From a virus, in the IMG/VR virus record IMGVR_UViG_3300027734_000294, positions 1 through 25,198 of that record: 25,198 nt of DNA, one strand, 5' to 3'. Position 1 is the first letter of the stretch. Each line of letters starts with the position of its first letter. A model generated the notes under the pieces. That model saw only the letters and a list, made by a program, of their open reading frames with translations, did not search any database and was not told the DNA's origin. Positions 427-9,773 of the stretch are shown one piece after another. The translations under genes and the position numbers were made by a program.

Positions 427-1233
427 ATGGCACGCAAGAAACCGCCATCGTTCGACTTCTTCGCTGATGACTTCATCGCGGGCACCTACCACATGGAAGC
501 AGAAGCGGTCGGCATCTACATCCGCCTGTTGTGCTATCAATGGTCGAATGGGTCAATTCCCGACGACGAGCCGACACTTTGCAAGATTGCCGGAGTCGAT
601 GCGAACGCATTGCGAACGCATATGCGGTCGGTTATGCGAAAGCTATGCGTTGGCAGTGCTGGAGAGTTGTACAACGAGCGACTTGAGATCGAGCGAGCGA
701 AAAAGCTAGAGATCATCGAGAAGGCGAAAAGGTCAGCGGAACAGCGATGGAGCAAGGAAAACAAAGGTAATCCGAAATTACGGCCGGAAAATGACGGATG
801 CGAACGCAATGCGAACGCATATGCGAACGCAATGCCAACGCAATGCTCCCTACTTCCTACTTCCAACGTCCTACTTCCAAATACAAATAACCCCCTACCC
901 CCTAAGGGGACAGGTAAAGCAACTTCGCTAGGTGAGTGGGACATACCGGACGGCTTTGATACTCCAGAAGTAAGACAAGCCCTTAGCGACTTCGAGTCGA
1001 TGAGGGCGAGTATCGGCAAGAAGATCAAGAGCCGGGCGAACGTATCGAAGTCCCTAAGAGGTTATGACAGTCCATCTCACTTGGTATATGCAATTGAGTT
1101 TGCAATTGGCAACGAGTACCAAGGCATCAAGCCTGAGTATCGACCAAGTAACGTAGGGCAAGGTGGCTACACGTCACCCAAGCCTAAAAAATCCACCCTG
1201 CCTGTTATCGACGAAAACTGGGAGCCAGCATAA
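427..1233 (+). CDS. DUF1376-family phage replication protein
   Basis: The 268-residue product begins MARKKPPSFDFFADDFIAGT and continues with the tryptophan/leucine-rich pattern of DUF1376 (YdaU-like) proteins, which occupy the replication-initiator position in many phages. Residues 1 to about 105 are the DUF1376 domain, about 115-160 form a low-complexity linker rich in N, A, P and T, and the rest is a basic C-terminal region. The ATG at 427 is chosen because AAGG lies seven bases upstream. An upstream GTG at 382 would add 15 residues but lies within the leader structure. The stop overlaps the next ATG (TAATG), so it is translationally coupled to the DnaB-type helicase. By analogy with lambda O it probably binds the origin and helps load the helicase. 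Two iteron clusters lie in its own coding sequence. Confidence 0.75.
   Translation: MARKKPPSFDFFADDFIAGTYHMEAEAVGIYIRLLCYQWSNGSIPDDEPTLCKIAGVDANALRTHMRSVMRKLCVGSAGELYNERLEIERAKKLEIIEKAKRSAEQRWSKENKGNPKLRPENDGCERNANAYANAMPTQCSLLPTSNVLLPNTNNPLPPKGTGKATSLGEWDIPDGFDTPEVRQALSDFESMRASIGKKIKSRANVSKSLRGYDSPSHLVYAIEFAIGNEYQGIKPEYRPSNVGQGGYTSPKPKKSTLPVIDENWEPA
600..650 (+). repeat. Iteron cluster 1 inside the replication gene
   Basis: TGCGAACGCA occurs exactly at 600-609 and 611-620, and TGCG half-sites follow at 623, 635 and 646. The spacings are 11, 12, 12 and 11 bases, so all copies sit on about the same face of the helix. Each full copy is itself a dyad (TGCG-AA-CGCA). The segment lies in the conserved DUF1376 part, so coding constraint could explain some of it. 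Confidence 0.5.
799..842 (+). repeat. Iteron cluster 2, four copies
   Basis: TGCGAACGCA occurs at 799-808, 810-819 and 822-831, with a one-mismatch copy TGCCAACGCA at 833-842. Spacing is 11, 12 and 11 bases, one helical turn. The encoded protein is a low-complexity NANA linker, so the DNA repeat rather than the protein is probably what is maintained. Together with cluster 1 and the adjacent G-poor tract it resembles lambda ori, which has iterons inside gene O. Confidence 0.6.
846..905 (+). other. Strand-skewed tract, candidate DNA unwinding element
   Basis: These 60 bases contain a single G on the plus strand (868). TACTTCC is present at 851, 858 and 872, followed by an A-rich stretch (879-890) and two CCCCCTA blocks. 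The tract begins directly after the last iteron, the position the melting region takes beside origin iterons. It encodes the proline/asparagine-rich linker of the replication protein. The melting role is inferred from position and strand asymmetry. Confidence 0.4.
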
Positions 1234-7471: not shown

Positions 7472-8130
7472 CAATCAGCATTGTAGGAAGTGCGACGAAT
7501 TTAGGTAACACAATCACCATGCCGACACATGCGGCAGGTGATCTGCTTATGATGTTTGCATACAACGATGGAGCATCGACAGCAGTTACACTCCCCACGG
7601 GATGGGTTGAGCGTTATGGTGTCGCAGTCGGTGGCTCAGGGTACATTCGAATTGGTTACAAGTATGCAGCATCAGCAGCAGAGACAAGCGGGACATGGAC
7701 GAATGCTGACCACATCTTTGCGATCTCGATGCGTGGTGGTTCTAATACACTGCTATTTCCAAATTTCGTTTCCACAAATACGGGTACATCTGCGACGATC
7801 AACTATGCCGCTCAAACAGCGTCAACATTCCAGACGAATGCAGACGATCAAGCATTGTTGAGCTGGGTTGCAAGTCGAAACTCTGCCAATACATTGACAG
7901 CACCAACAGGATTGACCGAAGAGCGAGCAGCGACAGACGGTGCAAACTTCGTCGCACAGATGTGTCGGCAACTTGCAAGAACGACGATTTGGGCCGCGAC
8001 GAATGTGACAGTGACGAATTCCGCACTATATCGAACAGTCATTTTGTCAGTGGTTGAGTCACCAGTCTATGGTGCAACTGGCGGTGGTGCGATGTTTTTC
8101 CGACCAGGAATGAATGGGGGACTGGACTGA
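7468..8130 (+). CDS. Virion-type beta protein, 220 aa, probable tail/host-contact component
   Basis: A GTG start overlaps the previous TGA. The sequence is rich in G, S, T, A and N, low in charge, and contains LPTGWVERYGVAVGGSGYIR and YKYAASAAETSGTW, the alternating pattern of small beta-sandwich phage or surface proteins with a PTGW motif. It ends in a glycine-rich segment (GATGGGAMFF). No catalytic motif. It sits immediately before the fibre-like protein, and the two probably form one structure. Confidence 0.6.
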   Translation: MTISIVGSATNLGNTITMPTHAAGDLLMMFAYNDGASTAVTLPTGWVERYGVAVGGSGYIRIGYKYAASAAETSGTWTNADHIFAISMRGGSNTLLFPNFVSTNTGTSATINYAAQTASTFQTNADDQALLSWVASRNSANTLTAPTGLTEERAATDGANFVAQMCRQLARTTIWAATNVTVTNSALYRTVILSVVESPVYGATGGGAMFFRPGMNGGLD

Positions 8131-9773
8131 TGAAACGTAAAGTTTTTGCTGGTATCACGTCTTTGAGCCTACCGATCATCGTGTACGACAACACATCGAC
8201 AACCGGAGCTGGATTGAGTGGCTTGACGCACTCAACGAGCGGCTTGGTGTTGGAGTATCGCAGGGCGGGCCAGTCGTCTTGGACTTCGGTTACTCTCGTT
8301 AGCAAGACGCTTGGCACGTATACCAGCGGCGGCATCGTTGCGAGTGGATCAAGAGCAGGACGCTACGAGGTCGATATTCCCGATGCGGCGGTAGCGGCTG
8401 GTGTTCGCATGGTTGAGATATGCCTTCGCGGTGCCGCGAACATGCACCCGGTAGACATTGAAATTGAACTAGACGCGGTGAACTACCAAGACGCAACATC
8501 CTTTGGCCTGTCGCGTATTGATGCGGCGGTATCGAGTCGCATGGCAACCTACACACAGCCTACAGGATTCCTCACGGCTGCGTTCCCAGCAACGGTTGCA
8601 AGCACGACGAACATAACAGCGGCAAGCGGTATTACGCTAGCGGCATCTCAACCTGGCGTAACGATACCGACGGTAACGAGCGTTACTAACGGCGTAACGG
8701 TATCGACGAACAACGATAAGACCGGCTACAGCCTCACGCAATCATTTCCGTCAAACTTTGCGACGTTGAGCATCAACGAAAGCGGTCGGGTATTGCTACA
8801 GCCTACGCAACCTGGCGTAACGATACCGACGGTAACGAGCGTCGATACGGTTGATGAATTGGGGCCTGATGCACTCAATGCCAACTCACTACAGGATCAA
8901 ATTTCGAGTGCAACGTGGAGCAGTCTTACTACAGCAACATGGCCCACCAACTCCTTCGGCAAGCAAGTGTTGATTGGATTGTCAACGCAACGCGAAGTTG
9001 CGGTAACGGGGTCTCATCACGTTGCATCCGTGCTGCACGACGCCGAGCCTAATTCGATCCCGGAAGATGCCTTTGTTACCGGTGCATTGTCGGCACGGGT
9101 GCTAGCAGCCGATGCGGCAACCGAGATAGCAACAACCGTAGGTACGTTGCAGGTGCTTACGCGATTGGACAGCATGATTGAGAGCGATGGAGCGGGGCAG
9201 TTTAGGTTTGATACGATTGCCTTGAGCATGGCACCGGCTGGAGGTGGTGGTGGTGGAACTGATTGGACGTCGAGCGAACGGACGGCTATTAGAGGTATCC
9301 TTGGGTTCAGCTCCAGCGGCGTCATCTCGTTGCCAAGCGAAGGTGTTTTAGATGCGATCAAAGACAAGACCGACCTGATAACATCAGGAGCGGTGCAGAC
9401 TTCACTACCGGTCACAGCAAGCGGTCAGATAACAAGCCCATTGGTTATCGGTGATGACTACCTAGCGGCCAATGGCAGAGCCTTTAGTTGGACGGTTGCA
9501 TTGCCTACCGGATTCGTTGCGGCTACCGCCTCTTGCCGATTCGGTATGCGTTTCGAGGATGAACAGGGAGTAAACTCATTCATCTCTACAGGCGCGGTAA
9601 CTGATGCGGGAAGCGGTAACGTGACGCTATCGTTCGACGTTGCGAAAACGGTTACAGGCATGCTCAGACCTGGTTGGTATGATTGGTCGGTTGAGATTGT
9701 TTCGGCATCTGGCGTTGAGGTTACACGGGTCAAGAGCGGTAAGAATGCCGAGTGGCAGGAGAAGCAGACATGA
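8130..9773 (+). CDS. Tail fibre/baseplate-like structural protein, 547 aa
   Basis: The start forms TGATG with the previous stop. Residues 1-125 (KVFAGITSLSLPIIVYDNTS... VRMVEICLRGAANMHPV...) match an N-terminal beta module frequent in phage tail-associated proteins of environmental phages. Residues 130-250 are a T/S/A/V-rich shaft including two copies of QPGVTIPTVTSV. A GGGGGG hinge follows, then DWTSSERTAIRGILG and LDAIKDKTDLI, a short motif pair common in phage tail proteins, then a C-terminal beta domain. It is likely a virion fibre or baseplate appendage. Its position upstream of the terminase, rather than after the tape measure, is unusual. Confidence 0.65.
   Translation: MKRKVFAGITSLSLPIIVYDNTSTTGAGLSGLTHSTSGLVLEYRRAGQSSWTSVTLVSKTLGTYTSGGIVASGSRAGRYEVDIPDAAVAAGVRMVEICLRGAANMHPVDIEIELDAVNYQDATSFGLSRIDAAVSSRMATYTQPTGFLTAAFPATVASTTNITAASGITLAASQPGVTIPTVTSVTNGVTVSTNNDKTGYSLTQSFPSNFATLSINESGRVLLQPTQPGVTIPTVTSVDTVDELGPDALNANSLQDQISSATWSSLTTATWPTNSFGKQVLIGLSTQREVAVTGSHHVASVLHDAEPNSIPEDAFVTGALSARVLAADAATEIATTVGTLQVLTRLDSMIESDGAGQFRFDTIALSMAPAGGGGGGTDWTSSERTAIRGILGFSSSGVISLPSEGVLDAIKDKTDLITSGAVQTSLPVTASGQITSPLVIGDDYLAANGRAFSWTVALPTGFVAATASCRFGMRFEDEQGVNSFISTGAVTDAGSGNVTLSFDVAKTVTGMLRPGWYDWSVEIVSASGVEVTRVKSGKNAEWQEKQT
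8649..8842 (+). repeat. 35-bp exact direct repeat within the fibre-like gene
   Basis: The 35 bases at 8649-8683 are repeated identically at 8808-8842, both starting CAACCTGGCGTAACG, 159 bases (53 codons) apart and in the same frame. Each copy encodes QPGVTIPTVTSV. Perfect DNA identity including third codon positions suggests a recent duplication or gene conversion in the shaft, so copy number may vary between relatives and change shaft length. Confidence 0.8.

Follow-up and report, generated by a model that had tools for sequence, protein, structure and literature searches.

A probable phage replication origin inside a DUF1376 initiator gene, exchanged together with the N-terminal domain among related phages

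The DNA analysed here, hereafter the window, is the whole of IMG/VR virus record IMGVR_UViG_3300027734_000294 (25,198 nt). It carries a gene for a DUF1376 protein, directly followed by that for a DnaB-like helicase, and the following features were delineated in and around them:

427..1233, + strand: initiator gene with DUF1376, assigned by Pfam PF07120, phrog_9327 and collinearity with YdaU
aa ~12-113 of the 427..1233 product: N-terminal DUF1376 domain, a predicted winged helix
aa ~123-155 of the same product: iteron-encoded linker
aa ~154-268 of the same product: C-terminal domain, putatively O-like/primosomal
599..655, + strand: array 1, five ATGCG-led units starting at 599, 610, 622, 634 and 645, with two exact TGCGAACGCA
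798..848, + strand: array 2, five units starting at 798, 809, 821, 832 and 843, with three exact TGCGAACGCA and TGCCAACGCA at 833
846..905, + strand: tract with a single G in 60 nt and repeats resembling CCTACTT, a candidate unwinding element
427..885, + strand: exchangeable cassette of N-domain, both arrays and tract, running from the start codon (ATGGCA) up to AACCCCCTACCCCC (886)
886..1230, + strand: C-terminal half, conserved; the related loci L014-L016, which have a different N-domain, match it at 115/115 aa
1233..2546, + strand: DnaB-like replicative helicase gene (DnaB_C 6.4e-59, phrog_19 7e-72)

The product of 427-1233 matches PF07120 (DUF1376) in Pfam with E 1.5e-9 and 38.6 bits, above the gathering cut-off of 30.1, and the PHROG family phrog_9327, 'primosomal protein', at 1.7e-16. 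It is collinear with Escherichia coli YdaU (E 2e-8), the two C halves giving a weak alignment (E 0.001); queried alone against PHROG, the C half of the window protein found no match. A search of Pfam likewise returned no sequence match of the protein to RepA_N (PF06970). The sequence-only reading of this DNA had likened the locus to lambda ori within the O gene. That parallel stands as regards iterons lying inside an initiator gene and their different sequence, but not as regards the N-domain, which is DUF1376 and not of the lambda O type; the window protein has no O-like match in PHROG. Past the end of the helicase gene and ahead of the ORF at 2756 (region ~2547-2758), the frame from ATGACAATCAGC (2547) encounters TAA near 2610 and is open thereafter, possibly reflecting a small gene with an internal stop or a re-start.

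Modeling of the N-domain with AlphaFold2 gave a pLDDT of 53 from five near-identical sequences and of 82 from a 14-sequence alignment. The model comprises helices at residues 13-20, 25-41, 48-55 and 59-70, then a wing of two strands and, last, a long helix. Its structural matches are winged helices, namely ORC2 (Z 6.9) and CRP/MarR types, and the N-domains of RepA_N initiators (4pql, 4pta, 5kbj) also match it over 84-85 residues with Z 5.6-6.4; DnaD is among the top Foldseek rows, yet is not significant. A search of solved structures for sequence relatives of DUF1376 recovered none. The modeled DUF1376 N-domain is thus a winged helix, with membership in a particular family unsupported since all Z are <8, and the helix at 59-70 is expected to be its recognition helix.

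Exact copies of the 10-mer TGCGAACGCA occur five times on the + strand of the record (600, 611, 799, 810, 822), all within 427-1233; the 25,198-nt record outside the gene has no further exact copy, and the reversed control pattern was also absent. Two copies have the one-mismatch form TGCCAACGCA, at 833 (+ strand) and at 646-655 (minus strand). The earlier tally of five exact copies and one with a mismatch was therefore correct save for this second mismatched copy, and its two clusters with 11-12 base spacing resolve into five phased units each, spaced by 11, 12, 12 and 11 nt in array 1 and by 11, 12, 11 and 11 nt in array 2. Variant unit starts are TTGCG at 610, ATGCC at 832 and ATGCT at 843, and the iteron has the form of a ~10-bp dyad, TGCG-AA-CGCA. 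Array 1 starts 172 nt into the gene, apart from the G-poor tract, and coincides in part with the codons for aa 59-70, the predicted recognition helix; array 2 encodes, as had been claimed, a low-complexity linker (CERNANAYANAMPTQCSLLPTSNVLLP). The arrays are 199 nt apart and in different frames; the exact copies lie in frames 1 and 0 in array 1 (translated as DANALR and LRTHMR) and in frames 2, 1 and 1 in array 2 (GCERNA, NANAYA and YANAMP), so that all three frames are used. When its frequency elsewhere was checked, the 10-mer proved to be confined to the DUF1376 gene of the record, and a 39,092-nt relative likewise has its five copies in this gene alone. Other relatives that keep the DUF1376 N half retain 4-5 exact copies of TGCGAACGCA, as against 0-1 in those with a different N half. 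Neither of the two findings that the sequence-only reading had named as refuting it was seen. Even a distant DUF1376 gene (L157, 24% identity) has ATGCGAACGCATTGCGAA at the aligned position in another frame. Array 1 may be a second half of the origin or may serve control.

The 60-base tract with a single G, also pointed out in the sequence-only reading, was recovered at 846-905 and adjoins array 2. It contains the least stable windows of the gene (20-nt, 871-890; 40-nt, 850-889), which rank in the top 0.2-0.3% of the record, the 20-nt window being in the top 0.2%. Its G-depletion reaches just p=0.02 under a codon shuffle (defined below), a modest value because the linker amino acids themselves account for most of it. 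The GC-skew inflection anticipated at an origin is absent at this locus, both in the window and in 19.5 kb of a relative: the skew is positive throughout, with only a local dip.

The C-terminal half (residues ~154-268) is common to the related loci L014-L021 and L023-L027 at 76-100% identity, and their N half differs. In L014-L016 the sequence diverges abruptly upstream of 886; at the other edge, loci of a second iteron type, type B (L021, L023, L027), have a leader like that of the window (87-89%) to position 432, i.e. up to the start codon. The N-domains that take the place of DUF1376 fall into the families phrog_2509/9474, 'replication initiation protein'. Type B iterons are GTAACGCGTAACG (GTAACG) and type C iterons are CTAACGC (CTAACG), with two arrays in each, and the length of the array differs by one 12-nt unit between the close relatives L010 and L011. 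The leader common to phages of different iteron type contains no array of either kind. Since the iteron type changes with the N-domain, the iterons are likely to be specific to their cognate N-domain, and the N-domain and its sites move as one cassette in related phages. We also considered a common ancestry of the DUF1376 and phrog_2509-type N-domains; it found no support, as hhalign detected no kinship between the two (probability 1.4%). Among other observations on such genes, the arrays in Salmonella phages epsilon15 and SPN1S (L131, L132) are inverted composites, TCCGCA..GTCCGCA..GCGGACA..GCGGA, nearly duplicated between N-domain codons and linker and followed by an AGAGAAG-rich purine tract. 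A search of the phage collection for close relatives was negative, as was one of sequenced bacterial genomes for the C-terminal half. The nearest phrog_2509-type relative sits in a Planctomycetaceae MAG (59%) and others are in planctomycetes, where DUF1376 is rare (3/392 genomes); judged only by these nearest phrog_2509-type relatives, the host of the virus is probably a planctomycete bacterium.

An equivalent exchange is seen in the Rac prophages of E. coli. The ydaU gene of the K-12 Rac prophage encodes DUF1376, carries TGTTCAAACA dyads in its linker and has 33 repeat pairs versus 14.6 +/- 4.7 after codon shuffling (0/500 reaching this value); the C half of YdaU matches phrog_678, 'replication initiation O-like' (2.5e-24). 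In strains NCTC11476 and H9 and in phage vB_EcoS-673R7, the N-domain specified at the ydaU locus is instead of the phrog_2509 type (E 4.7e-88), and two arrays of GTAACGC/GCGTTAC sites accompany it. Both Rac types are alike in the C half and ydaV (94-98%) and in the upstream region (93-96%), and among 5,426 complete E. coli genomes the DUF1376 cassette was counted 869 times and the phrog_2509-type cassette 683 times. By these alignments, the Rac swap is an independent replicate of the exchange in the group of the window. A reciprocal exchange was observed in Escherichia phage Rac-SA53 (L281), which joins a K-12 YdaU-like N half (93.6%) to a different C-terminal half, with a shorter gene in the position of ydaV. 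The Rac prophage has been reported to have an active replication origin, oriJ (PMC3945230), and oriJ plasmids are cited in PMC11014345.

To gauge chance, synonymous codons were permuted with protein and codon usage kept (500 shuffles), repeated 8-mer pairs being the statistic. The window gene has 84 such pairs versus 13.8 +/- 4.8 in shuffled versions (maximum 29 of 500). This excess of ~15 sd over a protein-preserving shuffle, along with copies in all three frames, bears out the earlier suggestion that the repeat is maintained for the DNA. The positive control, lambda O with its known intragenic origin, passes (51 pairs vs 16.7), and lambda P does not (13 vs 8.6); in the window, the DnaB gene has 52 pairs versus 37, and a large ORF at 8130-9773 also reaches p<=0.01. 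This level was attained by 21/40 DUF1376 genes, 64/117 phrog_2509-type genes and 16/150 neighbouring control ORFs. Given the passing controls, this null is too lenient, and the value for the window initiator is far beyond their range.

Spacing was examined across 158 non-redundant initiators (41 DUF1376 and 117 phrog_2509-type) and 160 control ORFs. Copies of a 7-mer on the same strand lie 11 nt apart in 51% of the initiators versus 7% of the controls, 12 nt apart in 47% versus 11%, and 22-24 nt apart in 17-30% versus 2-11% (25 vs 2% at 23 nt), with additional initiator peaks near 33-35 and 45 nt. Spacings of 11 and 23 nt are not multiples of a codon yet are among the most enriched, which argues against a protein-level cause. 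The array in the N-domain region matches that in the linker 2.6- and 2.5-fold more within a gene than across genes in the two families; as control ORFs also give 1.6-fold, this matching is partly a codon-usage effect. The DUF1376 iterons are often ~10-bp dyads (TGCGAACGCA, TGTTCAAACA, TGCTCAAGCA, GAACACCTGTTC) with a G-poor tract behind them, which frequently consists of short repeats (e.g. CATTCA, AACCAG). Tracts are G-poor in DUF1376 genes and C-poor in phrog_2509-type genes, an opposite polarity which indicates that the strand is not conserved. Genes of the phrog_2509 type commonly have two arrays, as do a minority of DUF1376 genes (the window, L013, L157, L273, L244). The strongest case of the survey was a DUF1376 gene from a pseudomonadotal genome (L248), in which eight copies of AACGACCG with 11/22-nt spacing form two groups, one at nt 347-369 of the gene and the other at nt 539-627, and which has 266 repeat pairs versus 47 +/- 12.

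Two candidate structured RNAs were observed upstream of the initiator gene. Just before the start codon, at 346-408, lies a hairpin with a three-way junction (z -4.3; -37 kcal/mol when its flanks are included), which is found at the same place in L014, L018, L021, L024, L053 and L056 and often precedes a small hairpin presenting the ribosome-binding site. The sequence of its basal stem of ~14 bp is wholly different in relatives with the pairing kept, e.g. CCCCGGCGGGTACA/TGTATCCGCCGGGG, CCCCGCGTCGTCGT/ACGGCGACGCGGGG and CTCCAGTGCCTTCGT/ACGAGGGCACTGGAG. The other, at ~126-265, is a candidate small RNA (AGGUUGGCUCGCC...CAACCU) with several stems and a terminator-like hairpin at 239-259. It is 85-90% conserved in relatives at a varying distance from the initiator gene, with both-sided pair changes in several stems (8/47 pairs). 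Searches of Rfam gave no match for the hairpin, and none even at E<=1 for the ~126-265 RNA.

Phased iterons in an initiator gene and an adjacent easily melted region, the hallmarks of intragenic origins of the lambda ori and pSK41 kind, are both present here. We accordingly regard 599-905, with a probability of about 85%, as a theta-type phage origin inside its own initiator gene, wherein DUF1376 would bind the iterons, the tract would open and the C half would help load DnaB. The basis of this reading is comparative throughout: repeats, phasing, maintenance at the DNA level, confinement, cassette exchange, low stability and a helicase neighbour. By analogy with lambda O and pSK41 Rep, we infer the binding of iterons by DUF1376, melting, helicase loading and origin activity. 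In such a mechanism, dimers of the N-terminal DUF1376 domain would coat the ~10-bp dyads, the 11-12 nt phasing aligning the bound molecules along one face of the helix; the bound arrays would favor opening of the adjacent unstable G-poor tract, and the C-terminal, putatively O-like domain would help to place DnaB, the helicase specified next door, on the opened strand. With specificity and sites in one stretch of the gene, both could be exchanged in a single cassette and the half that faces the helicase be retained.

The arrays could alternatively be initiator-binding sites used mainly for autoregulation or copy control, by handcuffing or as a transcriptional roadblock, with replication starting elsewhere. 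Plasmid iterons often double as control sites, array 1 is separate from the tract and begins just 172 nt inside the gene, and a pair of arrays is present in many relatives. Nevertheless, the leader shared across iteron types is free of arrays, placing the sites away from the promoter, and the low-stability tract adjoins array 2; we consider this account unlikely. Recombination-promoting repeats or neutral products of tandem duplication at a module boundary might be suspected from the cassette edge beside the tract and from the single 12-nt unit separating the arrays of L010 and L011. Such an origin of the repeats is very improbable, as the iteron changes with the N-domain, the within-gene match of arrays exceeds that of control ORFs, and tandem duplication leaves unexplained why a matching array should lie in a different frame at a distance of 199 nt.

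Phased repeats are also a feature of centromere-like sites, and the sites could in principle serve another DNA-binding function, e.g. partition or packaging. Their position in an initiator gene beside DnaB, their co-exchange with the N-domain and the distance of 9 kb to the terminase gene make this still harder to credit. Finally, the linker is of low complexity and control ORFs likewise show some excess of repeats, as expected if the repeats merely followed from codon bias or from the low complexity of the protein in a disordered linker, with no role for the DNA. This has next to no likelihood, in view of the excess over the same protein recoded, the use of several frames, spacings that are not codon multiples and the presence of array 1 in a folded domain.

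A broader proposal building on the origin reading is that a bipartite origin is the general rule for DUF1376 and phrog_2509 initiators, a large share of those of phages, with one array over DNA-binding codons and a matching one in the linker. Specificity and target would then be locked in one cassette, which would act as an incompatibility or superinfection type and be traded between unrelated N-domains joined to a shared helicase-loading half. We offer this tentatively and think it rather less probable than not. Initiator genes with their own origin are already known, as is the exchange of an N-domain with its origin on a kept C-domain (pPR9). A literature search, mainly of the open literature, combining replication or iterons with DUF1376 or YdaU returned nothing relevant. 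As far as the open literature shows, what is new is that DUF1376 receives an assignment, that there are two arrays of which one lies in winged-helix codons, and that N-domains with no detected kinship have been exchanged repeatedly, in two distant phage groups. A likely function as an origin-binding initiator is thereby proposed for DUF1376, a family without an assigned function which includes YdaU of E. coli K-12, and its candidate binding sites are named by sequence. These natural swaps of domain plus origin offer a direct route to studying the co-evolution of initiators and origins, and how related prophages avoid replication incompatibility.

Among known systems, the lambda O gene has its iterons where the DNA-binding N half gives way to the helicase-loading C half, with an unstable tract beyond them and a next gene that serves helicase loading (PMC7466680). 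The window gene is alike in the placement of its iterons and tract and in the helicase function next door. It differs in that the lambda iterons are annotated as a single group of four 18-bp elements at intervals of 20-24 nt, as opposed to ~10-bp elements 11-12 nt apart in two arrays; the lambda flank is AT-rich, whereas that of the window is 53% AT yet G-poor; and its N-domain is DUF1376 and its next gene is the DnaB helicase itself. The phrog_2509-type initiators (epsilon15, SPN1S, the 'MAGDWIK' family) also have two arrays at comparable positions in their own gene and share the C half in fusions, but their N-domain shows no relation by profile comparison, their iterons are GTAACG/GCGGACA and their tract is purine-rich rather than pyrimidine-rich. 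YdaU is a collinear DUF1376 protein with its own dyad iterons in the linker, but the iteron is TGTTCAAACA and the next gene is the DnaC-like loader ydaV in place of DnaB. In pSK41-type RepA_N Rep proteins, an N-terminal winged helix binds boxes located centrally in its own gene, the ori encoding the linker, and both N and C domains resemble DnaD (PMC5703833). This system is from a plasmid of a Gram-positive host with four boxes in one group, and no sequence relation to DUF1376 was detected. In the chimera pPR9, the N-domain and ori (~500 bp) are swapped for a phage-type domain and the C-domain stays >97% identical (PMC5703833). The window locus resembles pSK41 and pPR9 in having its putative origin sites in its own gene and in the exchange of the N-domain plus sites on a kept C-domain.
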